Below the pieces are notes generated by a model, which was not told the DNA's origin, ran no database searches, and saw only the letters and a program-made list of their open reading frames with translations. A DNA stretch of 38,324 nt, from the IMG/VR virus record IMGVR_UViG_3300022074_000132, positions 1-38,324 of that record; one strand, 5' to 3'. The DNA is from a virus. Shown one piece after another: positions 11,120 to 23,653 of the stretch. The position numbers were made by a program, and so were the translations under genes. Positions within the stretch are counted from its first letter, which is position 1. The number at the start of each line of letters is the position of its first letter.

Positions 11120-12943
11120 ATGGCTACTTATAAAAGTACAGTTGGGACAGCAGTCGTCAACTACGCTGGTAATTATCCAGGCGCCGTGGAAGGTGAGCTT
11201 TGGTACGATAGCACTAACAAAGATTTTAAATATCAATATCCAAATGTAACAACAACTGGTTCATGGTCAACTGGTGGTTCTTTAAATACAGCAAGAAGAC
11301 AAGTAAAAGCTGCAGGAATCTATACAGCTGCTTTAGCTATTGGTGGATATGTTACTTCACCCCAATCTCTTACAGAATCTTACAATGGATCAAATTGGAC
11401 TGAAGTAAATGATTTGGGAACTGCTAGATACGCAGGAGGTACCGCTGGTACATACACTGCAGCATTGTTTTTTGGTGGTGGCTATCCTTTTAAAAGCGAA
11501 ACAGAATCTTGGAATGGAACTAACTGGACAGAGCTAAATGATATGAACGCAGTTCACGGATCTACAGCAGGAGCAGGAGCCACTAATACAGCAGCGTTAT
11601 GTATGGGAGGATCTCCTGGACCTTCAGCTGCATTAACAGAACTATGGAACGGAACAAACTGGACTGAAGTAAATGATTTAGGAACAGGAAGATATAATAC
11701 TGCGGGTGATGGTACATCAACTTCAGCATTATTATTTGGTGGAAGAACTCCGCCTGGAGGACCTACAGGAGCTATTAAAGCTTTAACAGAGTCTTGGAAT
11801 GGTACCAATTGGACTGAAGTAAATGATTTAAATTTAGCTAGATATGGAGTTGGAGGAGCTGGAGCTGATAATACTGCAGCAGTGTGTTTTGGAGGTTTTG
11901 CTTATCCACCAAATGCTCTTTCTGCTACAACAGAAGTATGGAATGGATCAAATTGGACAGAACAGGGAGATTTAAGCACAGCTAGAGAATATCCTGGAGG
12001 AACAGGTACTTCAACTAATGCATTAGCTATAGCTGGAGATACTTCTTCACCAGGAGCTGCAAACTCAGCATTAACAGAAGAATGGACAGGTGCAGGGGTA
12101 GCACAGGGTGCTTGGGCCACAGGTGGTGCTTTAAATACAGCTAGATCACAAATAACTGGTGCTGGCACTAAAACAGCAACTATTGCTTTTGGTGGAATTC
12201 CTACATCTAATCAAAGTCTTTGTGAATCTTACAATGGAACTAACTGGACTGAAGTAAACAATTTAAATACGGGTAGAAGATCTTATGTTGGATCAGGCAC
12301 ACAATCAGCAGCAATAAACGTTGCAGGATATAATGGTTCATCAGATGTTTCTAATACAGAGTTATGGAATGGAACTAACTGGACTGAAGTTAATAATTGT
12401 AATACAGCTAGAAGAACTATTGCTGGTTCTAAACAAAGTTCGACTTCAACATTAATTTTTGGTGGAATACCTAATAGAAATGAAACAGAACTATGGAATG
12501 GAACCAACTGGACTGAAGTTAATAATTTAATTACAGGCAGAGCGCAAATGTCAGGAGCAGGTGCAGATAGTACATCAACTTTAGGTTTTGGTGGAACTAC
12601 AGGATCATCATCAGCACTAACAGAATCTTGGAATGGAACAAACTGGACTGAAGTTAATGATTTAAACGTTGCAAGAGAAAATGGTGGAGGAACAGGCACT
12701 CAAACATCAGCTATAGCTTTTACTGGATCAATACCTCCTCATACAACCGCTACAGAATTATGGAATGGAACTAGTTGGTATAACGACTCAGCTATGAGTA
12801 CTGCTAGAATGGCATTAGGTTCATCAGGTCCTGATAGTTCAGATGCATTAGCTTTTGGAGGCACTACATCGCCAGGAGCTGAATCAGGACTTACAGAAGA
12901 GTGGACTAGTGCTACAAATGTGGTAAAAACTTTAACAGATTAA
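11120..12943 (+). CDS. Kelch-type double beta-propeller fibre protein 1
   Basis: A 607-residue protein. An N-terminal attachment-like segment (residues about 1-45, TAVVNYAGNYPGAVEGELWY) leads into kelch repeats of about 45-50 residues with the core FGG-x(n)-TE(S/L)WNGTNWTEVNDLNTAR. Blade-defining NTAR-type motifs occur six times before a break at EEWTGAGVAQGAWATGG and six times after it, so I read two six-bladed propellers in tandem, ending with EEWTSATNVVKTLTD. Kelch signs are the GG doublet, the Tyr/Trp before NG and the Trp after it. No signal peptide or catalytic residues are seen. It resembles the genes at 13276 and 15105 and is probably a receptor-binding tail component; carbohydrate binding is inference. 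Confidence 0.8.
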   Translation: MATYKSTVGTAVVNYAGNYPGAVEGELWYDSTNKDFKYQYPNVTTTGSWSTGGSLNTARRQVKAAGIYTAALAIGGYVTSPQSLTESYNGSNWTEVNDLGTARYAGGTAGTYTAALFFGGGYPFKSETESWNGTNWTELNDMNAVHGSTAGAGATNTAALCMGGSPGPSAALTELWNGTNWTEVNDLGTGRYNTAGDGTSTSALLFGGRTPPGGPTGAIKALTESWNGTNWTEVNDLNLARYGVGGAGADNTAAVCFGGFAYPPNALSATTEVWNGSNWTEQGDLSTAREYPGGTGTSTNALAIAGDTSSPGAANSALTEEWTGAGVAQGAWATGGALNTARSQITGAGTKTATIAFGGIPTSNQSLCESYNGTNWTEVNNLNTGRRSYVGSGTQSAAINVAGYNGSSDVSNTELWNGTNWTEVNNCNTARRTIAGSKQSSTSTLIFGGIPNRNETELWNGTNWTEVNNLITGRAQMSGAGADSTSTLGFGGTTGSSSALTESWNGTNWTEVNDLNVARENGGGTGTQTSAIAFTGSIPPHTTATELWNGTSWYNDSAMSTARMALGSSGPDSSDALAFGGTTSPGAESGLTEEWTSATNVVKTLTD

Positions 12944-12958
12944 TAAAAGGAGAAAACT

Positions 12959-13267
12959 ATGGCAAAAACATATCAATACTGTGTAGCAGAAAACTGGGGA
13001 AAGGGTTTCATCGATCACGTTGAATCTCAAAGAATCACGTTTGTAGGCTATCCTGGAAATGTTTGGCAAGTTCCTGCATACAACAAACACGGTAATCTTT
13101 GGATTGCTAAAGTTGCAGGTACTGTAAAAACAAAAGACGAGGCACAGGCGATTGTTGATGCAGAGGTTCAAGCGGCGCAAGCTGCGTGGGATGCTTTACC
13201 TGATGCTGAAAAAGCACCAGCAGTAGAGACTAACACAAGACCTGCTGACATAACATTGGAGGAGTAA
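12959..13267 (+). CDS. Small protein between kelch genes
   Basis: A 102-residue protein with an AAGGAG ribosome site, placed between the first two kelch genes. The first half is aromatic and mixed (YQYCVAENWGKGFIDHVESQ, then VWQVPAYNKHGNLWIAKVAG). The second half is an Ala/Glu-rich helix (KDEAQAIVDAEVQAAQAAWD) and an acidic Pro/Thr tail. It has no propeller repeat. Its position suggests a fibre assembly factor or a small virion protein, but I do not recognise a family. The second kelch gene starts eight bases after its stop. Confidence 0.6.
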   Translation: MAKTYQYCVAENWGKGFIDHVESQRITFVGYPGNVWQVPAYNKHGNLWIAKVAGTVKTKDEAQAIVDAEVQAAQAAWDALPDAEKAPAVETNTRPADITLEE

Positions 13268-13275
13268 AAATTTAG

Positions 13276-15102
13276 ATGGCTGAGTATAAAGAAATACATG
13301 GCACAAAGATTCGGAACTATACGACTAATCCCGATAATCCGATTACGGGAGAGGTGTGGTATAACGATACTGATAATGTTTTAAAGTTTCAATTTCCTAC
13401 TGTAACCACAGTTGGTTCGTGGAGAACTGGTGGAAATATGAATACTGCTAGACGACAGTTAATTGGATCAGGATTATATACAGCTGCTTTAGCATTTGGA
13501 GGTAGAGGCACTCCACCTCCTACCAGATATACAAATACAGAATCTTACGATGGAACAAGTTGGACTGAAGTAAACGATTTAAATACTGCAAGATCAGATG
13601 GTTCTGGTATGGGAGTAAGTACATCGACTATAGCTGCTGGTGGAATTACCCCCTCAGCTGCAACAAATGTTACAGAAACTTGGAATGGCACGAATTGGAC
13701 AGAGGTAAATGATTTAAATGCTGCAAGATATGGAATAAGAGGATTTGGATCTACTAATACAGCTGCATTAGCATTTAGTGGAGCTGCACCGTATACAGGC
13801 GCAACAGAACTTTGGAATGGAACTAACTGGACTGAAGTTAATGATTTAAATACGGCAAGAGCATATGGTACCGCAACTGGAACTTCTTCTACCGCAGGTT
13901 TAGCTGTTACTGGATATATTTCCACTGGAAACTCAGCAGTAAATGAATCTTGGAATGGAACAAACTGGACTGAGCTTAATGATGTAAATACTGCTAGAAA
14001 TGGATTGGCAGCATCAGGGCAAGGCACAACGACTTCATCATTAATTTTTGGTGGGAGTGTTTCTCCAAAACAACAAACAGAAGAATGGAATGGTACAAAT
14101 TGGACAGAGGTTGCAGATTTATCTTCTGCAAGAGATAATTTAGCAGGAGGTGGAACTGCAACAAATGCTTTAGCTTTTGGTGGAGACACTCCTCCAAACT
14201 CAGCAGCAACAGAAGAATGGAATATAGGTGTACCAGTTGGAGCATGGTCTACAGGTGGAACTATGAACACAGCAAGAGGAATGTCTGCTTTTGCAGGTAC
14301 TCAAACAGCTACACTAGCTACACAAGGACTTAACAATAATACAGATACTATAATTAATGTAACAGAATCTTACAATGGAACAAATTGGACTGAAGTCAAT
14401 GATGCAAATTTAACTAGAGGTCAACTTTTTGGTCATGGTACACTACCATCTGCTTTAATATATGGTGGGTACGCTAGTGGATCAAATAAAACTGAAACTG
14501 AAACTTGGAATGGAACTAACTGGACTGAAGTAAATGATTTAAACACTGCAAGATATGCTCATTGGGGAGTAGGTGCAGATAGTACAACGGGTTTAGCTGT
14601 TGGAGGTGCTGATACAGCAATAACTGGAAAAACAGAATCTTACAATGGAACTAACTGGACTGAAGTAAACGATTTAAATACTATAAGAGCTACAGCAGGT
14701 GGAGCAGGAACCTATACAAGTTCAATAGCTATGGGTGGACAAACTCCTGGATCACCTGGAAGAACATCAAACTCAGAGTTATGGAATGGAACTAACTGGA
14801 CTGAAGTTAATAATATGAACACGACTAGAAGATCAATAGGAGGACTTGGAACTTCTACTTCTGCTTTAGCAGTTGGAGGAGACGAAAGTCCAAGTGCTAG
14901 AAGTGCTAAAAATGAAGAATGGAACGGTGTTAGTTTTGTAGAACTTGCAGATTTAAGTGCTGCCAGAGAATTTGCGGGAGCATCAGGCACAACTACTGCT
15001 GGATTAGCTGGAGCAGGTAGAAATCCACCAACATCAAGTCTTTCATCAACAGAAGAATGGAGTGGTTCAACAAATACAACCAAAACAATAACTACAGATT
15101 AA
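13276..15102 (+). CDS. Kelch-type double beta-propeller fibre protein 2
   Basis: A 608-residue paralogue of the gene at 11120. It has the same N-terminal module (YKEIHGTKIRNYTTNPDNP, then TGEVWYNDTDNVLKFQFPTV), a first set of six NTAR-type blade motifs, the linker EEWNIGVPVGAWSTGGTMNTAR, a second set of six and the same kind of end (EEWSGSTNTTKTITTD). The blade cores repeat WNGTNWTEVNDLNTAR with little change, while the loops (residues after NTAR and before the next FGG) vary. I infer two six-bladed kelch propellers. GGAGGAG lies 11 bases before the ATG. Large antisense open frames across this gene are products of its repeat codons. Confidence 0.8.
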   Translation: MAEYKEIHGTKIRNYTTNPDNPITGEVWYNDTDNVLKFQFPTVTTVGSWRTGGNMNTARRQLIGSGLYTAALAFGGRGTPPPTRYTNTESYDGTSWTEVNDLNTARSDGSGMGVSTSTIAAGGITPSAATNVTETWNGTNWTEVNDLNAARYGIRGFGSTNTAALAFSGAAPYTGATELWNGTNWTEVNDLNTARAYGTATGTSSTAGLAVTGYISTGNSAVNESWNGTNWTELNDVNTARNGLAASGQGTTTSSLIFGGSVSPKQQTEEWNGTNWTEVADLSSARDNLAGGGTATNALAFGGDTPPNSAATEEWNIGVPVGAWSTGGTMNTARGMSAFAGTQTATLATQGLNNNTDTIINVTESYNGTNWTEVNDANLTRGQLFGHGTLPSALIYGGYASGSNKTETETWNGTNWTEVNDLNTARYAHWGVGADSTTGLAVGGADTAITGKTESYNGTNWTEVNDLNTIRATAGGAGTYTSSIAMGGQTPGSPGRTSNSELWNGTNWTEVNNMNTTRRSIGGLGTSTSALAVGGDESPSARSAKNEEWNGVSFVELADLSAAREFAGASGTTTAGLAGAGRNPPTSSLSSTEEWSGSTNTTKTITTD

Positions 15103-15104
15103 TT

Positions 15105-16121
15105 ATGACAACATACAAAGAATTACGAGGATCACAAATAGAAGTGGTAGCAACCGATCCATCAAATCCTGTTGAAGGACAAGTTTGGTATAATACAACT
15201 TCTAATGTTTTAAAAGGTCAAGCGGCTACAACTGTTGGTTCGTGGAGAACTGCTAATAGTATGAATACTGCTAGAAGATTTCTAGGAGGAGCGGGCATTA
15301 ATACAGCAGCTTTATTATTTGGAGGAGAAGTTAGTGGAAGTGGTTCTGGAGTAACAGAATCTTACAATGGAACAAGTTTTACAGAAGTTAATGATTTAAA
15401 CACTGGAAGAGTTCGTATAGGAGGTGTTGGGGCAGATAATACAGCAGTTTTAGCTTTTGGTGGAAGTGGTCCTCCAACTTCACCTAATTACAAAGCAGAG
15501 ACAGAATCTTTTAATGGAACTAACTGGACTGAAGTAAACAATTTAAATGATGGAAGATGGGCTATGGCAGGTAATGCTGGAATTCAAAATGCAGCTTTAT
15601 TATTTGGAGGTGCTCCAGGAGAGGTACCCTCTTCAGGTCCTAACACAGAAGTTTGGAATGGAACAAATTGGACAGAAGTAAATAATTTAAACACTCAAAG
15701 ATCAGAAAATGCAGGATCAGGAACATATACATCTGCTTTAAGTATAGCAGGAACTCCATCTTATCCAACATCAACAGCAGTTGTGGAACAATGGAATGGA
15801 ACAAACTGGACAGAAATAACAGATGTGAATACTGGAAGAAATGATTTAGGTAGTTTAAAAGGTGGTGGAACAGTTACAGACACTATAATTTTTGGTGGAA
15901 TAAATCGTAGTGGTCCAACTATCTACGCAAATACAGAATCTTGGAACGGAACTTCATGGACTGAAACAACAGATTTAAGTACAGCAAGATATGGTCTTTC
16001 AGGATCAGGTACATCAACAGCTGCATTAGCTGCAGCAGGACTTACAACAGCAGATCAATCAATAGCAGAAGAATGGGCAGGTCCAGGTGCTGGAGTTACA
16101 AGAACGTTTACCGATTCATAA
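15105..16121 (+). CDS. Kelch-type single beta-propeller fibre protein 3
   Basis: A 338-residue paralogue with one set of six blade motifs, ending at EEWAGPGAGVTRTFTDS. The open frame reaches back to 15057, but that part overlaps the previous gene and lacks homology. The ATG at 15105 gives MTTYKELRGSQIEVVATDPS, which aligns with the N-termini of the other two kelch genes (MATYKSTVGT, MAEYKEIHGT), so I choose it although no clear ribosome site precedes it. Blades read WNGTNWTEVNNLN with more variation than in the other two. It is likely the single-propeller form from which the double forms arose, or a shortened copy. Confidence 0.8.
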   Translation: MTTYKELRGSQIEVVATDPSNPVEGQVWYNTTSNVLKGQAATTVGSWRTANSMNTARRFLGGAGINTAALLFGGEVSGSGSGVTESYNGTSFTEVNDLNTGRVRIGGVGADNTAVLAFGGSGPPTSPNYKAETESFNGTNWTEVNNLNDGRWAMAGNAGIQNAALLFGGAPGEVPSSGPNTEVWNGTNWTEVNNLNTQRSENAGSGTYTSALSIAGTPSYPTSTAVVEQWNGTNWTEITDVNTGRNDLGSLKGGGTVTDTIIFGGINRSGPTIYANTESWNGTSWTETTDLSTARYGLSGSGTSTAALAAAGLTTADQSIAEEWAGPGAGVTRTFTDS

Positions 16122-16158
16122 GACTTGTAATATATTTTAATTAATATATATTAGTCTT
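16120..16158 (+). terminator. AT-rich hairpin closing the fibre operon (possible terminator)
   Basis: AAGACT (16120-16125) pairs perfectly with AGTCTT (16153-16158). After a three-base bulge, AATATAT pairs with ATATATT inside, leaving an AT-rich loop. The stem overlaps the stop codon of the third kelch gene. It lacks a clear T-tract, so a terminator is only one reading; a processing site or an operator for the following genes is possible. Confidence 0.45.
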
Positions 16159-16177
16159 AACTATAAAGGATAAAGCT

Positions 16178-16855
16178 ATGAAAAAAGACGTTAAAGAAGT
16201 TATACAAGGTGAAGAACCACATTTAAATAATCTATTAACAACTGAAGATCTATCATCGTTTAAAGGTATGGTAGACGAGCTTCGTGATACATGGACCAAG
16301 AAACAAATGTTTCGAACAGAAACAGAAGCTAGGTTTTCTGTACTACAGGACAATCGTTATCCAACTAAAGCATCAAAATACTGGCAGTGCGTTAGAGAAC
16401 AATCATCATACTTAGATAATCTAATGACATTATCTTTTGACTATAGAAGAAATGAAGCAAAGATTAAATGGTTAGAAGGTAAAGTTGAAAAAGAAGAAGA
16501 TGAATATAAAAAAACTAAATATAAAATAGATTTAGATGAAGCTATATTTGGTAAAGCTTCTATGGAGAAAGTTGCTAAACATAGAATGAGAGAAATTAAA
16601 ATGTGGTCTAAATTAAAAGGTGAATTTAATGATGGATCGTTTAATGATAAAGATGTTAATCAACATCAGTTAGAATCTTATGGATTGCAATACCATGAAA
16701 AAGCAAAAACGTTAAATCAAAACTCATCAGAGGCTGAAGTTTTTAATGTAATGGGTCAACTACAATCATTACAAAGAATTAAAAAGTCTGGTGAATTAGA
16801 AAGTAGTTATCAAGAGAAAGAACAAATTGAACAACATGGGAAACCAAAACCGTAA
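16178..16855 (+). CDS. Coiled-coil protein of unknown function
   Basis: A 225-residue, charged, almost wholly helical protein. Residues about 50-145 are Lys/Glu/Arg-rich (YRRNEAKIKWLEGKVEKEED and on) and predicted coiled coil. The region around WTKKQMFRTETEARFSVLQD and KYWQCVREQSSYL is the most conserved-looking part. It has no membrane segment. I have seen related proteins in marine phages beside fibre and oxygenase genes, without known function. AAAGGA is placed about eight bases before the ATG. It overlaps the sulfotransferase start by 20 bases, tying it to the cassette that follows. Confidence 0.65.
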   Translation: MKKDVKEVIQGEEPHLNNLLTTEDLSSFKGMVDELRDTWTKKQMFRTETEARFSVLQDNRYPTKASKYWQCVREQSSYLDNLMTLSFDYRRNEAKIKWLEGKVEKEEDEYKKTKYKIDLDEAIFGKASMEKVAKHRMREIKMWSKLKGEFNDGSFNDKDVNQHQLESYGLQYHEKAKTLNQNSSEAEVFNVMGQLQSLQRIKKSGELESSYQEKEQIEQHGKPKP

Positions 16856-17627
16856 GTTATTTTTTTTAGTTGCATTACCTAGATCTGGAAATACTTTATT
16901 TACGAGCATTATTAATCAAAATTCAGAGATAGCTTGCACAGCTAATTCTGTAACTTTAGAAATAATGAAAAACATTTTTTTAATAAAAATGACAGACACC
17001 TTTCAAAATTTTCCTGATCACAGATCTTTAGATAATGTGTTAGATAATGTGTATGATTTATATTATAAAGACTGGCCTCAAAAAATAATTATAGACCGTG
17101 GACCTGTAATGACAAGTGGTAATCCTGGAAATTTTGAATTAATGCAAAAACATTTTAAACATGGTTTTAAATGCATTATTTTATTAAGAGATTTAATGGA
17201 TGTGTTTGCAAGTTATATGCAGTGGTATACAGAAAACCCTAGTTCATTTGTAAATAAATTAGGATTTAATGATGAAGAAAAATTACTAGCTTTAATGAAA
17301 GAAAATGGTGCTATTGTAAAAGAACTTAAAGCTATTCAAAATTCATATAATTATCCTAACCTATGTCATTATGTACGATATGATGATATGGTTTCAAATC
17401 CTGAACAAGAGTTTAGAAAAATTTATAACTTTATAGATGAACCTTATTTTAATCATTACTTTGATAATTTAAATCAAGTTAAAATAAACGGTTTGTCTTA
17501 CGATGATAAAATAGTTGGTGATAATATGCATAAACTATTTGATGGACCTGTTAGAAAAGTATACAATCCTTACATAGAAAAAATACCAAAAAATATTAGA
17601 GAAAGATATGAACACATTAAAATTTGA
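16836..17627 (+). CDS. Putative PAPS-dependent sulfotransferase
   Basis: A 263-residue protein. The open frame reaches TTG 16827, but ATG 16836 is the better start. LVALPRSGNTLFTSII (residues 11-26) matches the 5'-phosphosulfate loop of PAPS-dependent sulfotransferases, with the PRSGNT turn at 15-20. CIILLRDLMDVFASYMQWY (113-131) matches the 3'-phosphate loop, with R118 and S126 in the expected places. The C-terminal third contains the usual VRYDDMVSNPEQEFRKIYNFI segment that follows in this family. The reaction would move sulfate from PAPS to a hydroxyl or amine on a glycan, protein or small molecule. PAPS would come from the host. It is coupled to five putative oxygenases downstream. Confidence 0.85.
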   Translation: MGNQNRKLFFLVALPRSGNTLFTSIINQNSEIACTANSVTLEIMKNIFLIKMTDTFQNFPDHRSLDNVLDNVYDLYYKDWPQKIIIDRGPVMTSGNPGNFELMQKHFKHGFKCIILLRDLMDVFASYMQWYTENPSSFVNKLGFNDEEKLLALMKENGAIVKELKAIQNSYNYPNLCHYVRYDDMVSNPEQEFRKIYNFIDEPYFNHYFDNLNQVKINGLSYDDKIVGDNMHKLFDGPVRKVYNPYIEKIPKNIRERYEHIKI

Positions 17628-18267
17628 TTTTGTATTTTTAGGTCAGTCGGTTTTAAAGTATCAAGTACCGCTTGATATATTTACTACAATTAATCAAATC
17701 TACGAACAAAATTTTCATAACCTTGCCCCTGCAAACGAACAATTAGTGGGTAAGATAAAGAACGAACATTCATTGTTTTATCATGGTCAAGATGAGTCTA
17801 AAATGAAAAACCATAATATGTTACCTAGAAATGTTACAGATTATTTTATGCAAATATTTAGACACTATCTAGCATTTAATAAAATTAGAGATTATGAAAC
17901 TCATTTAAATTCTATTTGGGTTAATGAAATGAAACAACATGAATACAATCCTACACATATTCATAGAGGTATGTTATTTACTGGATTGTCTAGTGTAATG
18001 ATTTTAAAACTACCATCAACATATGGTAAAGAATATTCAGCAGAACACATACAACAAAATGGTAGACTACAAATATTAGGTGCAGCTAATGGTCAGTTTG
18101 CTAAAATAGATTATCAGCCACCAATGGATCTTAGAGATTTTTATATATTTCCATATGACATGAGACACTGTGTATATCCTTTTAATGGAACTAATGAAAC
18201 TAGACGAACACTAGCTGCAAATTGTGATGTAAAATTTGATCCTATTAGAAATAGAGGAGCTACTTAA
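17608..18267 (+). CDS. Putative Fe(II)/2-oxoglutarate oxygenase 1
   Basis: A 219-residue protein whose last half has the layout of a double-stranded beta-helix oxygenase: NPTHIHRGMLFTGLSSVMIL (residues 114-133) with H117 and H119, then FYIFPYDMRHCVYPF (178-192) with H187, and NETRRTLAANCDV (196-208) with R199 or R200 as 2-oxoglutarate-binding candidate. Similar His-x-His arrangements occur in the TIGR02466-type family, to which the enzyme at 19428 also belongs. The iron-binding set is incomplete in the classical sense (no clear His-x-Asp), so the call is less secure than for its neighbours. It overlaps the sulfotransferase gene by 20 bases and joins the next gene by one base. Confidence 0.65.
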   Translation: MNTLKFDFVFLGQSVLKYQVPLDIFTTINQIYEQNFHNLAPANEQLVGKIKNEHSLFYHGQDESKMKNHNMLPRNVTDYFMQIFRHYLAFNKIRDYETHLNSIWVNEMKQHEYNPTHIHRGMLFTGLSSVMILKLPSTYGKEYSAEHIQQNGRLQILGAANGQFAKIDYQPPMDLRDFYIFPYDMRHCVYPFNGTNETRRTLAANCDVKFDPIRNRGAT

Positions 18268-18845
18268 TGGATAAACAATATTACATAGATAATCATATAG
18301 GTATATTTAAAAACTTTATGCCAAACGAATTGATAGATGATTATAGAAATTATTTTAATAAGTGTGAACAACAAGGTGCAGTGTATCCAAGGCATGTAGA
18401 TGAGATGTTAGTAGCCGATAATGCAATCGATACCATTAGAGACACCAATGTCCCTATGACTTATAACAACAAACCTTTTATAGATATGTTTTTTAAAGAT
18501 GTGTATCCTTTGTATGTTCAAAAATATTCTTTTTTAAAAAAATTAGCGACACATAATATACTTGAAGTTAAAATACAAAAAACTAAAGTAGGTGAAGGTT
18601 ATCATTTTTGGCATTGTGAGAATGCAGAGATGAAAGCAAGAAACAGAATACTGGCTTTTATGATATACCTTAATGATGTAACCGAAGGTGGAGAGACAGA
18701 ATTTTTATATCAAAAGTGTAGATTCAAACCAGAAAAAAATACTATGTTAGTTTGGCCAGCACAATTTACACATGTTCACAGAGGAAACCCACCTTTGTCG
18801 AATGATAAATATATAATAACAGGATGGGTAGAATACGGATATTAA
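18267..18845 (+). CDS. Putative Fe(II)/2-oxoglutarate oxygenase 2 (prolyl-hydroxylase type)
   Basis: A 192-residue protein with the outline of a prolyl-4-hydroxylase-type 2-oxoglutarate oxygenase. GYHFWHCENAEMKARNRILA (residues 111-130) supplies H116-x-E118 as first iron ligands (Glu in place of the usual Asp). FMIYLNDVTEGGETEFLYQK (131-150) is the characteristic strand pair with GGETEF. MLVWPAQFTHVHRGNPP (160-176) supplies H169, and K181 in DKYIITGW would bind 2-oxoglutarate. It would use O2 and 2-oxoglutarate to hydroxylate a protein side chain or small molecule. The gene overlaps the preceding one by one base and is one base apart from the next. Confidence 0.83.
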   Translation: MDKQYYIDNHIGIFKNFMPNELIDDYRNYFNKCEQQGAVYPRHVDEMLVADNAIDTIRDTNVPMTYNNKPFIDMFFKDVYPLYVQKYSFLKKLATHNILEVKIQKTKVGEGYHFWHCENAEMKARNRILAFMIYLNDVTEGGETEFLYQKCRFKPEKNTMLVWPAQFTHVHRGNPPLSNDKYIITGWVEYGY

Positions 18846-18846
18846 T

Positions 18847-19431
18847 ATGATTACAGAACCACGTTGGAAATCTTACATAGTAGAAACCACACAACCAATC
18901 TTTACACCTAAACAATGTCAAATGATTATTGAAGCTGGACGTTCTGAACCTCGAAATAATGCTGAAGTTGGAAGTGATAAAGGAATTAAAGGTGGTCAAG
19001 TAGATACTAAAACTAGAACCTCACATATTAGTTGGATACCATTTAAAAAAATGGGAGATATGTATAAAGATATTGAGCGCATTATGAAAACTACAAACGG
19101 TAATCATTTTGGTTTTGATGGAATGACTATAACTGAAATGGCACAATACACCGAGTATCCAGAAGGAGGATTCTATGATTGGCATGTAGATAATGATGTG
19201 AACATGCAACACGAGCCACCTGTAAGAAAAATATCTATGACTTGTTTACTATCACCAGAATCAGAGTTTGAAGGCGGTGACTTAGAACTTCAAGCTGAAG
19301 GTAAAGTTGCAAAAATAAAACAAGGGCATGCAATATTTTTTGCATCATTTATTAGACATAGAGTTAAACCAGTTATACGTGGCAACAGAAAATCTTTAGT
19401 TATGTGGTTTGGAGGCACGCCATTTAAATGA
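18847..19431 (+). CDS. Putative Fe(II)/2-oxoglutarate oxygenase 3 (PKHD type)
   Basis: A 194-residue protein close to PKHD-type hydroxylases (PiuC/YbiX group). The ligand set is complete: H113-V-D115 in FYDWHVDNDV, H171 in FIRHRVKPV, and R181 in GNRKSLVMWFGG. The pair RKISMTCLLSPESEFEGGDL (residues 127-146) is the expected beta-helix core. These enzymes hydroxylate peptidyl or small substrates with O2 and 2-oxoglutarate; the substrate here is unknown. It begins one base after oxygenase 2 and its stop overlaps the start of oxygenase 4 (ATGA type), so the genes are translated together. Confidence 0.9.
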   Translation: MITEPRWKSYIVETTQPIFTPKQCQMIIEAGRSEPRNNAEVGSDKGIKGGQVDTKTRTSHISWIPFKKMGDMYKDIERIMKTTNGNHFGFDGMTITEMAQYTEYPEGGFYDWHVDNDVNMQHEPPVRKISMTCLLSPESEFEGGDLELQAEGKVAKIKQGHAIFFASFIRHRVKPVIRGNRKSLVMWFGGTPFK

Positions 19432-20015
19432 TGATTAAAGCTGCATACTTTCCAACAATTATATATGCTAAAGATGTAAATTTAGACAACAGACTTTTTG
19501 AAAAAGAAGTTCTTGCTTGGGCGGATAAAGACAAAGGAGTCAAACGAACTAACATGAATGGCTGGCATAGTGCAACTAATATGCATGAGATACCAGTGTT
19601 TAAACCATTAGTTAATGAATTATTTAAAATGCAAAAAGAAGTATTTCAAGAAGAGTGGCTAGAGAGCGAACCTTATATGGGAAATATGTGGGCTAATATA
19701 AATCCACCAGGTGGATATAACAGACCACACTTACATCCAAATTCTCATTACAGTGGTGTATACTATATTAAAGCACCTAAAAACTCTGGACAGATAATAT
19801 TTAACGAACCAAGATCAAGTGCACATATGGTTATGCCAAGAAGAAAAGAAGGCACACCTCCCTCACATTTGTGGAGAGAAGTTAGAGTAGATCCGTTAGA
19901 AGGTAGAATAGTTATATTTCCTGCATGGCTTTGGCATTGTGTTGACCCAAATGAAAGCGATGAGATAAGAATATCAGTATCGTTTAATTTTTTACAGAAA
20001 GGTTTTAATGTTTAA
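19428..20015 (+). CDS. Putative Fe(II)/2-oxoglutarate oxygenase 4 (TIGR02466 type)
   Basis: A 195-residue protein that fits the TIGR02466 family of putative 2-oxoglutarate oxygenases. Its pattern is MWANINPPGGYNRPHLHPNS (residues 87-106) with H101 and H103, HYSGVYYIKAPKNSGQIIF (107-125), EPRSSAH, then GRIVIFPAWLWHCVDP (159-174) with H170, and RISVSFN with R181. It is of typical family length. The start at 19428 overlaps the previous stop by four bases; a second ATG follows at once. The eight-base overlap with the next gene continues the tight coupling of the cassette. Confidence 0.87.
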   Translation: MMIKAAYFPTIIYAKDVNLDNRLFEKEVLAWADKDKGVKRTNMNGWHSATNMHEIPVFKPLVNELFKMQKEVFQEEWLESEPYMGNMWANINPPGGYNRPHLHPNSHYSGVYYIKAPKNSGQIIFNEPRSSAHMVMPRRKEGTPPSHLWREVRVDPLEGRIVIFPAWLWHCVDPNESDEIRISVSFNFLQKGFNV

Positions 20016-20655
20016 AGACTATAAATATCAAGTAATAAAGAATGCTGTATCTTACGATCTAGCTAACTTTATATTAAACTATTTTTTACTTAAAAGAGAT
20101 GCAACAGCTTTTATGTATAAACATAACATACATTCACAGTCACCGATACTTGGAACATGGACCGATAAACAGATACCAAATACTTATTCATGTTATGCTG
20201 ATTTTGTTATGGAAACACTTATGGTTAAGATGTTACCAGTAATGAAAAAACATACTGGTTTAGATTTAATACCAACATACTCTTATGCTAGAGCCTATAA
20301 AAAAGGTGATGAACTTAGAAGACATAAAGACAGACCTAGTTGTGAGATTTCTACAACAGTTAATCTAGGTGGAGATCCTTGGCCTATATTTATCGATGGC
20401 ACAGGGTCTAATAACGTCATAGATGAGTATAAGAACATACATAAACCCAACGCTCCAAAAGGCACAAAAGTCTTGCTTGAAGTAGGTGATATGCTAGTAT
20501 ATAGTGGTTGCGAACTCGAACATTGGCGAGAGCCTTTTGACGGGAACATTTGCGGTCAAGTATTTCTACATTATAATCATGTAAATGGCCCATTTGCTGA
20601 TAAGAATAGATTTGATGGCAGAGCTATGCTAGGTTTACCATCAGGTATAAAATAG
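20008..20655 (+). CDS. Putative Fe(II)/2-oxoglutarate oxygenase 5
   Basis: A 215-residue protein resembling oxygenases common in marine cyanophages. YARAYKKGDELRRHKDRPSC (residues 93-112) gives H106-K-D108. STTVNLGGDPWPIFIDG follows as a core strand pair. GDMLVYSGCELEHWREPFDG (160-179) gives H172. After this, GQVFLHYNHVNGP ends the fold, with Q184 near the usual 2-oxoglutarate Arg position, which is a difference from the classical pattern and may mark another co-substrate geometry. The substrate is unknown. It is the last gene of the cassette; the gp10-like tail gene begins 17 bases later. Confidence 0.83.
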   Translation: MFKDYKYQVIKNAVSYDLANFILNYFLLKRDATAFMYKHNIHSQSPILGTWTDKQIPNTYSCYADFVMETLMVKMLPVMKKHTGLDLIPTYSYARAYKKGDELRRHKDRPSCEISTTVNLGGDPWPIFIDGTGSNNVIDEYKNIHKPNAPKGTKVLLEVGDMLVYSGCELEHWREPFDGNICGQVFLHYNHVNGPFADKNRFDGRAMLGLPSGIK

Positions 20656-20672
20656 TATTATAATGGAGTCAT

Positions 20673-22850
20673 ATGCTACAAAAGATAGGGTTTCAGCCTG
20701 GTATCAACAAACAATTAACACCTACTGGAGCAGAAGGTCAATGGACTGACTGTGATAATGTACGTTTTAGATATGGCACACCTGAAAAAATAGGTGGTTG
20801 GAAACAATTAGGAGATGATGCACTAACTGGTGCAGGTAGAGGACTTCATCATTTTGTAAATAGTAAAGCTAGAAAATACGCAATCATTGGCACTAACAGA
20901 ATTTTATATGCATATTCAGGGGGTGTATTTTATGACATTCATCCTATTAAATCTACAACAACGCTTACAAGTGCATTCACCACGACCAACGGATCAGCAA
21001 CTGTTACAATAACATTTAGTTCTCCACATAATATAAGCGCACAAGATATTGTCTTATTAGATAATTTTAGTTCAATAACTAATTCTAATTATAGTGCATC
21101 TGATTTTGATGATAAAAAATTTATGGTAACAACTGTGCCTACAAGTACAACTATTACAATTACAATGCCAGCAAACGAATCAGGATCTGGTGCAACAACA
21201 TCAGGTGGTATTAGAGTACAACATTATTATCCTGTAGGACCAGCTGTACAAGCACAAGGTTTTGGTTGGTCACTTGGATCATGGGGTGGTGAAGTAGCGG
21301 GTGAACCTACAACTACATTAACAAATGGTATAAATAGTTCTGTTACAACAGGAATTATATTGGGTGATGTATCTCAGTTTCCAGATGCAGGTACAAACTT
21401 TATAAAAATAGACAACGAAGAAATTTCATACACAGGTATATCTGGTAACGAACTTACAGGTGTTACAAGAGAAGTTAGAGGAACTTCTGCTGCAGCCCAT
21501 AGTGGAGGTGCAACAGTTACTAGTACAACAAACTTTGTAGCATGGGGAGAAGCTGCATCAGGTGATTTAGTTCTTGAACCTGGTATGTGGTCATTGGATA
21601 ATTTTGGTGACAAAGCCATATGTTTAATTCACGATAGTGCTGTTTTTGAATGGAACTCTGCAGCAACAAATGCAGAGACTATCAGAGCAAGTATTATATC
21701 TGGTGCACCAACAGCATCACGTCATATGTTAGTATCTACACCTGATAGACACTTAGTATTCTTTGGAACAGAAACGACGATTGGAGATACATCAACACAA
21801 GATGATATGTTTATTAGGTTCTCGGACCAAGAAGATATTAATACTTATACACCTACAGCAACCAATACAGCTGGTACACAAAGACTGGCCGACGGATCAC
21901 AGATCAGAGGAGCAATCAGAGGTAGAGATGCAATCTACGTTTGGACTGACACTGCATTGTTCACACAACGTTTTGTTGGTCAACCATTTACTTTTGCCTT
22001 TGCACAAGTAGGTACTAACTGTGGACTTGCTGGACAGAACGCATGTGTTGAAGTTGATGGTGCTGCGTACTGGATGTCAGAGAATGGTTTCTTTAGATAT
22101 GCTGGTAAACTAGAATCATTGCCATGTTTAGTAGAAGACTTTGTTTACGATAATATAAATTTAGAATCTGGTAATCAGATGGTATCCGCTGGATTAAATA
22201 ATTTGTTTGGTGAAGTTATTTGGTTTTATCCAACTACAGGATCATCAGTAGTTAATAGACAAGTTACATATAATTATTTTGATTCATCACCACAAAGACC
22301 TGTATGGACTGTTGGATCTTTAGCTAGAACTATGTGGGAAGATTCTGCAGTATTTGGTAACCCACATGCTTTATCTTATGAAGCAGGAACCGATACATCT
22401 TTTGATGTTGTGGGTAATACAGAAGGTAGAACAATATACTATCAACACGAAACAGGAACTGATCAAGTTCAAGGTGGTGCAACTACAGCAATTGTTGCTA
22501 GCATTGAATCAGGTGACTTTGATATTACTCAAAGAATAGTAGGTAATCAACAAACAGGAATAGCTGATACTAGGGGAGATGGTGAGTATCTTATGAAGAT
22601 TAGAAGATTTGTGCCTGACTTTATATCACAAACTGGATCAACAAGAATTACATTTAATCTACGCGATTTTCCTAATGATTCACAATCAAGCTCTCCATTA
22701 GGGCCATTTGATATAACATCTAGCACAAAAAAAATAGATACAAGAGCGCGTGCACGTGCTATAGCTTTAAAAATATCTAATACAACAACTAATCAAAGTT
22801 GGAAATTAGGTACGTTCAGATTAGATATACAACCAGACGGAAGACGATAA
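20673..22850 (+). CDS. Tail protein, P22 gp10-like (packaged DNA stabilisation)
   Basis: A 725-residue protein with the N-terminal signature of the P22 gp10 family: IGFQPGINKQLTPTGAEGQW followed by DCDNVRFRYGTPEKIGGW. In P22, gp10 forms the tail hub that closes the channel after packaging. This copy is longer than P22 gp10 (472), with inserted segments such as the SVTTGIILGDVSQFPDAG to GVTREVRGTSAAAHSGG block (residues about 215-285). The C-terminal half contains GAIRGRDAIYVWTDTALFTQ and YWMSENGFFRYAGKLESLP, also typical. It follows the oxygenase cassette by 17 bases and overlaps the next gene by one base (TAATG). Confidence 0.85.
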   Translation: MLQKIGFQPGINKQLTPTGAEGQWTDCDNVRFRYGTPEKIGGWKQLGDDALTGAGRGLHHFVNSKARKYAIIGTNRILYAYSGGVFYDIHPIKSTTTLTSAFTTTNGSATVTITFSSPHNISAQDIVLLDNFSSITNSNYSASDFDDKKFMVTTVPTSTTITITMPANESGSGATTSGGIRVQHYYPVGPAVQAQGFGWSLGSWGGEVAGEPTTTLTNGINSSVTTGIILGDVSQFPDAGTNFIKIDNEEISYTGISGNELTGVTREVRGTSAAAHSGGATVTSTTNFVAWGEAASGDLVLEPGMWSLDNFGDKAICLIHDSAVFEWNSAATNAETIRASIISGAPTASRHMLVSTPDRHLVFFGTETTIGDTSTQDDMFIRFSDQEDINTYTPTATNTAGTQRLADGSQIRGAIRGRDAIYVWTDTALFTQRFVGQPFTFAFAQVGTNCGLAGQNACVEVDGAAYWMSENGFFRYAGKLESLPCLVEDFVYDNINLESGNQMVSAGLNNLFGEVIWFYPTTGSSVVNRQVTYNYFDSSPQRPVWTVGSLARTMWEDSAVFGNPHALSYEAGTDTSFDVVGNTEGRTIYYQHETGTDQVQGGATTAIVASIESGDFDITQRIVGNQQTGIADTRGDGEYLMKIRRFVPDFISQTGSTRITFNLRDFPNDSQSSSPLGPFDITSSTKKIDTRARARAIALKISNTTTNQSWKLGTFRLDIQPDGRR

Positions 22851-23653
22851 TGGAACAATATATAGACGAATTTGGTAATTTACAATTTAGAGAACCTTCA
22901 AATAATCTCCCATTTAAATCAATGGTCGATATGGCAGCTGAAAATAAAAATTTTATGAATCAGTTTAATTTTTCTTCTGCTGATTTAAATAATGTTCCAG
23001 TAGAAATATCACAATTACCTATTGCATCCGTTCCTAATAATTTTTTAAATTATAGGTTTCAAAACGCTAGAACTCCATTTACTCCATTTAAAGAAGGTAT
23101 AGAAACTCTTAAATCAAATGTATCTAGTGGTATTGGTAAAGGTTTTGATTTAGGAAAAGCAGCTATTGGCGGCATAGCATCTTTAGTGTCAGGCATACCT
23201 GGAATAGGATTATTACTTAATTCACTTCAACCAATGAGTCCAGAACAAAAAGCAATGAGAGATTTTTATGGAAGTGAGTTTGGACTAGATGATATAGGTC
23301 GTGTTCAAAGTGGTATTATGCAAGGATATAATCCTGTATCTTTATTTGGTGGTGTGGGTTTAAATCAAGCAATTGATAAACGAATAGCTAGAATACAAAA
23401 AACTTTACAAAAGAAAAAATCAGATACTTTGCAACAACGATTAAAAGACTTACAAGCCTTAAAAGCAAAAGAAGCAGCAGCATCTGCAAAAGCACTTGAA
23501 GCACAAAGAATAGGTAGAAGACCCTCAGCACCAAGTGGTGGTGGAGGAACAAAAGATTCAGGTGGACCAACAGGTGGCTATTCTTATGACTCTGGTGGAA
23601 GACAAGGATTTGGTTACGGTCTTAAAAATGGAGGACTTGTAAGTTTATTATAA
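22850..23653 (+). CDS. Putative internal/ejection protein, Gly-rich C-terminus
   Basis: A 267-residue protein. The open frame extends to 22799, but ATG 22850 overlaps the previous stop (TAATG) and is the natural start. It has a hydrophobic stretch AAIGGIASLVSGIPGIGLLL (about residues 103-122) that could insert into a membrane, a charged helical segment (IQKTLQKKKSDTLQQRLKDL), and a Gly/Ser-rich tail ending GLKNGGLVSLL. That ending is a motif seen at the ends of many marine-phage virion proteins. Its place after gp10 and before other ejection candidates suggests an ejected internal protein. Confidence 0.6.
   Translation: MEQYIDEFGNLQFREPSNNLPFKSMVDMAAENKNFMNQFNFSSADLNNVPVEISQLPIASVPNNFLNYRFQNARTPFTPFKEGIETLKSNVSSGIGKGFDLGKAAIGGIASLVSGIPGIGLLLNSLQPMSPEQKAMRDFYGSEFGLDDIGRVQSGIMQGYNPVSLFGGVGLNQAIDKRIARIQKTLQKKKSDTLQQRLKDLQALKAKEAAASAKALEAQRIGRRPSAPSGGGGTKDSGGPTGGYSYDSGGRQGFGYGLKNGGLVSLL

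Follow-up and report, generated by a model that had tools for sequence, protein, structure and literature searches.

A conserved cassette of a sulfotransferase and five oxygenases beside the tail-fibre genes of a pelagiphage: a candidate system for virion-protein modification

Layout of the cassette and identity of the phage

The stretch of DNA analysed here (the window, 38,324 bases, viral contig IMGVR_UViG_3300022074_000132 of IMG/VR) carries at positions 16836-20655 a compact cassette of one sulfotransferase (ST) and five Fe(II)/2-oxoglutarate (2OG)-type oxygenases (O1–O5), all on the plus strand and arranged head to tail. The six genes that a preliminary description of this DNA had linked by overlaps and one-base gaps are genuine open reading frames, and all of their products belong to named superfamilies (ST and O1–O4 by Pfam, O5 by structure). 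ST (16836-17627) overlaps O1 (17608-18267) by 20 nt, and O1 overlaps O2 (18267-18845) by a single nt; a 1-nt gap separates O2 from O3 (18847-19431), which in turn overlaps O4 (19428-20015) by 4 nt, and O4 overlaps O5 (20008-20655) by 8 nt. The preceding plus-strand gene, which we call 'up' (16178-16855), encodes a conserved 225-residue protein of unassigned function with a weak match to PHROG 1409 and overlaps ST by 20 nt. The same-strand run that it opens begins 56 bases past a fibre gene and ends 17 bases ahead of a virion gene.

The position of the cassette between fibres and a gp10-like tail gene was also borne out. Upstream lie two repeat-rich fibre-like genes (13276-16121, plus strand, one of them at 15057-16121; PHROG 27227) with WNGTNWTEVNDLNTAR repeats, whose products are candidate substrates, and the downstream border is formed by the gene of a virion structural protein (20673-22850, plus strand; PHROG 3287), annotated as a P22 gp10-like 'stabilization' protein in relatives. 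A consensus scan of the sequence for a promoter or terminator belonging to the cassette scored no better than shuffles and so carries no information. The capsid protein of the window is 81% identical to that of HTVC027P, the helicase 64% to that of psg01 and 62% to that of HTVC027P, and the tail gene 45-49% to those of HTVC023P, HTVC027P and psg01; these shared genes place the contig among the HTVC023P-type pelagiphages, viruses that are highly abundant in the ocean and whose relatives infect SAR11 bacteria. By analogy with those relatives, a SAR11 bacterium is the likely host.

Predicted enzymes

Each of O1–O4 matches PF13759 or PF13640 above the Pfam cut-off. O1 and O4, of the PF13759 type, match 2OG-FeII_Oxy_5 at 2e-8 and 3e-29, respectively (O4 also TIGR02466 at 1e-40), while O2 and O3, of the PF13640 type, match Oxy_3 at 1e-13 and 4e-15; O3 is PiuC/YbiX-like, resembling hydroxylases of that type in both its double-stranded beta-helix fold and its HxD...H site. 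Counted over distinct homologues (105-158 per oxygenase gene), the metal-site residues are invariant in all five enzymes: H117-x-H119/H187 of O1 in 156 homologues (H187 being unread in one), H116-x-E118/H169 of O2 in 105, H113-x-D115/H171 of O3 in 156, H101-x-H103/H170 of O4 in 158 and H106-x-D108/H172 of O5 in 131. They are followed by R199/R200 in O1, K181 in O2 and R181 in both O3 and O4. The sites are thus of three types, namely H-x-E in O2, H-x-D in O3 and O5, and H-x-H in O1 and O4, where the HxH...H arrangement in place of H-x-D is the signature of PF13759 and recurs in two solved structures of unassigned function (3BVC and 2RG4). The preliminary description had recognised the sets of O2–O5; its judgement that the first oxygenase is weaker was mistaken. 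Because O1/O4 (25% identity over 116 aa) and O2/O3 (22% over 82 aa) are the only pairs, both distant, and O5 stands alone, a recent tandem duplication is ruled out, in agreement with the preliminary description; no long stretch shows more than 25% identity between any of the five oxygenases. The accompanying statement that they represent different subfamilies is mostly correct and holds fully for O5, except that O1/O4 and O2/O3 share two Pfam families. A side observation concerns PHROGs 2297, 274 and 19810, which match the domain of O2–O4 (18267-20015) as well as oxygenases of relatives and carry the name 'DNA endonuclease (V)'; since they cover the same oxygenase domain, these names are probably mislabels.

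O5 has no Pfam match and is recognised by PHROG 2954 (6e-49), a family labelled 'ferrochelatase'. An AlphaFold2 model built from a 47-sequence alignment (pLDDT 92.5, pTM 0.89) predicts a double-stranded beta-helix like that of P4H and PHD2. Among solved structures it comes nearest to 2OG oxygenases, the prolyl hydroxylases included (Foldseek E 1e-8; VIA-align Z up to 15.8, and about 15 to P4H and PHD2, at 13-15% identity), and almost all of the PDB matches listed are 2OG oxygenases, several of them natural-product oxygenases. Because this high-confidence model is a beta-helix oxygenase, the 'ferrochelatase' label of PHROG 2954 is, as far as the predicted fold can tell, wrong, and the likeness of O5 to HemH is one of name. 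None of 47 PHROG 2954 members matches a ferrochelatase in Pfam at E up to 10, and no ferrochelatase appears among the best 50 structural matches to O5 (an absence that alone is no proof, as the fold is). With the modelled fold and the Pfam result together, a ferrochelatase or heme role of O5 was ruled out. Relatives of O5 occur in 154 phage records, many of them annotated 'ferrochelatase', and the label, on which two papers build, has been used in PMC3037559 (as 'ferrochetalase domain'), PMC9599517 and PMC11561400, the last of which claims a seasonal enrichment of PHROG 2954. PHROG 3531 bears the ferrochelatase name as well and matches O2, O3 and O5 more weakly.

ST matches Sulfotransfer_3 (PF13469, 2e-13) and PF00685 (7e-9). 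Its 5'-phosphosulfate loop (P15-T20, PRSGNT) and 3'-phosphate pair (R118/S126) are invariant in 82 homologues, and by profile, loop and Arg/Ser pair it is predicted to be a sulfotransferase dependent on 3'-phosphoadenosine 5'-phosphosulfate (PAPS). When its model (pLDDT 86.8) was compared with the PDB, all seven tyrosylprotein sulfotransferase (TPST) entries, human and tick, ranked first (Z 16.0-16.4), followed by an olefin-synthase (14.6) and a CurM domain (14.2), with no SULT or heparan sulfotransferase above 12.3. TPST1/TPST2 are thus the nearest solved fold (over ~240 residues), and the PRSG(N/T)T loop and the Arg/Ser pair are retained, although the phage enzyme is 12-14% identical to them and differs at the catalytic Glu position. 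As the model lies nearest to the TPSTs, the fold favours a peptide-like substrate, short of proof. In cellular genomes, 69 pattern matches to ST included no relative.

Conservation in related and distant phages

The comparison took in over 200 viral contigs with relatives of O2, ST or O5. The cassette keeps the order up-(ST)-O1-(O2)-O3-O4-O5-tail gene with hardly a break; in some 140 viral contigs this order is fixed, and even the junctions are kept: the O1-O2 gap is exactly 0 in 118 of 118 contigs, the O3-O4 overlap measures 3-6 bases in 124 of 124, and 'up' is present and adjacent in 109 loci. Median pairwise dN/dS values of 0.07-0.28 (0.12 for 'up') indicate that all of the genes are maintained by purifying selection; together with the identical order and spacing, they exclude a chance arrangement. 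The folds and metal sites are present and the genes stay linked, so neither of the outcomes that the preliminary description had named as damaging to its proposal (missing folds or sites; genes scattered in relatives) occurred. O1, O3, O4 and O5 are nearly constant members (O4 in two sequence types), O2 is optional and shows the highest sequence conservation, and ST is found in about one third of the contigs (24/66 and 13/41 in the sets whose selection did not involve ST). The presence of ST changes at least 23 times over a tree of 149 contigs and that of O2 at least 8 times, so ST is often gained or lost as its neighbours stay; no linkage between the presence of ST and that of O2 was seen on this tree. 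The O3-O4-O5 trio reaches more distant HTVC023P-like contigs, and pelagimyophages such as HTVC008M carry homologues of O3, O2 and O5 in a single run. Among the 129 contigs with enough upstream sequence, a repeat-fibre gene stands directly before 'up' in 106, and a variant fibre in most of the others. The product of 'up' is itself highly conserved and is possibly a chaperone or structural partner.

Some relatives add to the unit, further oxygenases among other genes. Two contigs (L280 and L098) have an inserted gene of the Asp/Asn beta-hydroxylase family, and ParB_N-like genes or a methyltransferase gene lie between O4 and O5 in others (L172:5021-5458, L226:5392-5796, L171:3749-4246). L151, L230, L280 and L284 also carry a sulfotransferase next to oxygenases, accompanied by various repeat proteins or fibres, in L151 by a 1017-aa Kelch-like protein. 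In L230 (AG-345-E08, 11249-23455), genes for RCC1-repeat propeller proteins are interleaved with oxygenase, O5-like, TPR, sulfotransferase, GT25 and DUF6445 genes.

Runs of 5-9 oxygenases occur in S-CREM1, syn9, HTVC008M and Mosig, and published counts are 10 oxygenases for S-CREM1, 24 for S-SCSM1 and, for HTVC023P-type phages, eight kinds; the earlier remark that single phage oxygenases are known was right as to their occurrence in phages and understated its extent. In 12 of the 14 named phages with an O5 relative (a set picked by hand, not a random sample), tail, fibre, neck or baseplate genes lie within a few kb of the oxygenase run. In syn9 the order is tail fibre, fibre assembly, Trp halogenases and oxygenases; in S-PM2, S-RIM32 and S-H9-2 it is short tail fibre or tail collar, oxygenase, tail assembly chaperone and oxygenase; and in Sf-FP1 it is fibres, halogenase and oxygenases. 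A tail-fibre gene precedes the run in Mosig, and the genes of a collagen-like protein and a Trp halogenase lie near that of S-CREM1. Trp halogenase genes beside or near fibre-proximal oxygenase runs were noted in L297 (S-CREM1), L298 (syn9), L312 (Sf-FP1) and L227 (HTVC008M), and these enzymes may act on fibre tryptophans instead of free tryptophan. The T4-like cyanophages and pelagimyophages (S-CREM1, syn9, S-PM2, S-SCSM1, HTVC008M, Mosig) resemble the window in their divergent oxygenase runs, which often end in an O5-like gene and have fibre, chaperone or halogenase genes in their vicinity, but they are of another morphotype, their gene order is not fixed and the runs seen contain no sulfotransferase.

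Closer at hand, HTVC023P, psg01 and HTVC033P have a trio resembling O3-O4-O5 placed between their fibre and tail genes, as in the window. The 'partner' auxiliary metabolic genes (AMGs) reported for this phage type (PMC9599517) likewise comprise several non-orthologous oxygenases beside a 'ferrochelatase'. There, however, the genes are often nearby and non-adjacent and the ferrochelatase is taken at face value, whereas the window joins them to ST in one strict unit of overlapping genes, with O5 a predicted oxygenase; the word 'sulfotransferase' is absent from the text of PMC9599517. Oxygenase clusters in these phages are already known. The elements new to us are a strict cassette that includes a TPST-like ST, the corrected annotation of PHROG 2954, the recurring association with fibres in different phage groups and a possible donor module; among the papers searched, nothing relevant came up on tyrosine sulfation in phages, hydroxylation of fibres or PAPS synthesis by phages.

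Candidate function, rival explanations and sulfate donor supply

The folds and metal sites, the fixed order, the purifying selection and the fibre or tail neighbourhood in several phage groups are established. With a probability of roughly 0.55, we read the cassette as one for the late modification of virion proteins, probably of tail fibres. ST and O1–O5 would form a single late, co-translated unit of an HTVC023P-type phage, acting on the phage's own virion proteins and most likely on the repeat fibres encoded just upstream; each oxygenase would hydroxylate, or oxidise in some other way, specific side chains, and in phages that have it ST would add sulfate to tyrosines or to freshly made hydroxyls, with altered fibre stability or receptor binding as the outcome. 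Here we infer the late expression, the protein and specifically the fibre as substrate, and the chemistry of each enzyme. Support comes from the families of O1–O5, which are those of peptidyl hydroxylases (O5 being P4H/PHD2-like and O3 PiuC-like), from the TPST entries at the top of the ST comparison and from the embedding of the cassette in the structural gene run, seen in nearly all relatives. The comparable fibre or tail surroundings in other phages, the recurrence of a sulfotransferase and oxygenases with other repeat proteins, and the Asp/Asn beta-hydroxylase-family gene of L280 and L098 point the same way. The preliminary description had put forward a dedicated modification pathway with the phage's fibres among its possible targets; a pathway tied to the fibres is the best-supported reading, with ST as an optional member and the fibre as a presumed substrate.

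Several points weigh against fibre modification. Substrate, activity and late timing are predictions, and the tyrosine content of the fibres does not differ between contigs with ST (2.55%) and without it (2.42%). The catalytic Glu of the TPSTs (E99 in TPST2) aligns with N37 of ST, an Asn invariant in 82 homologues; E42, kept in 80 of these 82, might serve as a replacement. O5 departs from P4H and PHD2 in having no Arg or Lys at H172 +9 to +13, the usual 2OG-anchoring place, a caveat for its predicted use of 2OG as cosubstrate; R95, R174, Q184 and H188 are invariant instead. Oxygenases are not always fibre-proximal (as in ACG-2014f and in the CP12 region of S-SSM5), and the hand-picked set of named phages lends its count less force; S-SKS1, with a sulfotransferase near an O5-like gene, is uninformative on the fibre neighbourhood. 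Finally, SAR11 is not known to synthesise PAPS, and the supply of the sulfate donor in such a host is doubtful.

The enzymes might instead modify the host surface (lipopolysaccharide (LPS), other glycans or a surface protein) late, for instance blocking re-adsorption or superinfection. A sulfotransferase near fibres would suit such receptor masking, a GT25 'LPS biosynthesis'-type glycosyltransferase gene adjoins the ST of L230, and HTVC023P and HTVC027P have glycosyltransferase genes nearby. We nevertheless hold this to be unlikely, since the ST model is closer to peptide than to glycan sulfotransferases and the substrates of P4H/PiuC/AspH-type oxygenases are mainly peptides. Rather improbable, too, is a shift of host 2OG, nitrogen or iron/heme metabolism, as proposed in print for cyanophages (2OG/NtcA) and pelagiphages (partner AMGs with 'ferrochelatase'): 2OG oxygenases do consume 2OG, but burning it needs no five divergent, individually conserved enzymes, the heme part depends on a label contradicted by the O5 fold, and the genes sit within a structural run. 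We give little credence to a biosynthetic cassette for an oxidised, sulfated small molecule or peptide natural product, to which the CurM and olefin-synthase matches of ST, the natural-product oxygenases matched by O5 and the methyltransferase, kinase and nucleotidyltransferase genes added in some relatives could point, as no scaffold-making enzyme was recognised among the cassette genes, which sit among virion genes. DNA or nucleotide modification is very improbable: TET/JBP-type oxygenases occur in phages and one L151 oxygenase matches Tet_JBP weakly (7e-4), but none of O1–O5 has a Pfam match to the TET/JBP or AlkB families, the 'DNA endonuclease V' names look like mislabels and the location is among fibre genes. 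Should fibres be modified and not metabolism, much of what has been concluded about AMGs would change, including the heme/iron readings built on the 'ferrochelatase' label and the seasonal enrichment of PHROG 2954 (PMC11561400), and virion protein sulfation with multi-site hydroxylation would add a new level to the chemistry between phage and host.

As to the sulfate donor, a search for adenosine 5'-phosphosulfate (APS) kinase in 24 small genomes returned partial P-loop matches only, a weak test given that they come from the family of a 'Rickettsiales' metagenome-assembled genome whose SAR11 membership is unverified. A related branch has, directly after ST, a P-loop kinase (APS_kinase above cut-off) and a CTP_transf_like nucleotidyltransferase; this pair is absent from the window. 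The two genes always occur together (83/83). Of 57 distinct cases, 48 have ST as the gene just upstream of the pair, and only two or three lack ST within about 1.5 kb; in L373 the gene upstream of the pair matches sulfotransferase profiles weakly. The solved structures matched by the pair are adenylate kinases (for the N-terminal P-loop part), a probable APS kinase (E 0.014) and nicotinamide mononucleotide (NMN) adenylyltransferases, and Stenotrophomonas phages carry fused relatives of the pair with no annotated sulfotransferase beside them, one adjoining a NADAR gene. That the pair makes PAPS in the related branch is an attractive idea and stands at about even odds; given the fused relatives that lack an adjacent ST, it may also have another role, for example in NAD metabolism. 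Only tentatively, then, do we suggest a complete phage protein oxidation-and-sulfation system on tail fibres, in which the kinase and nucleotidyltransferase of some relatives would make PAPS for hosts unable to do so. Examples of an APS-kinase-like gene and a HIGH-type nucleotidyltransferase gene directly after a sulfotransferase are found at L222:3469-4186 and L219:3215-3923 and in L316-L395.

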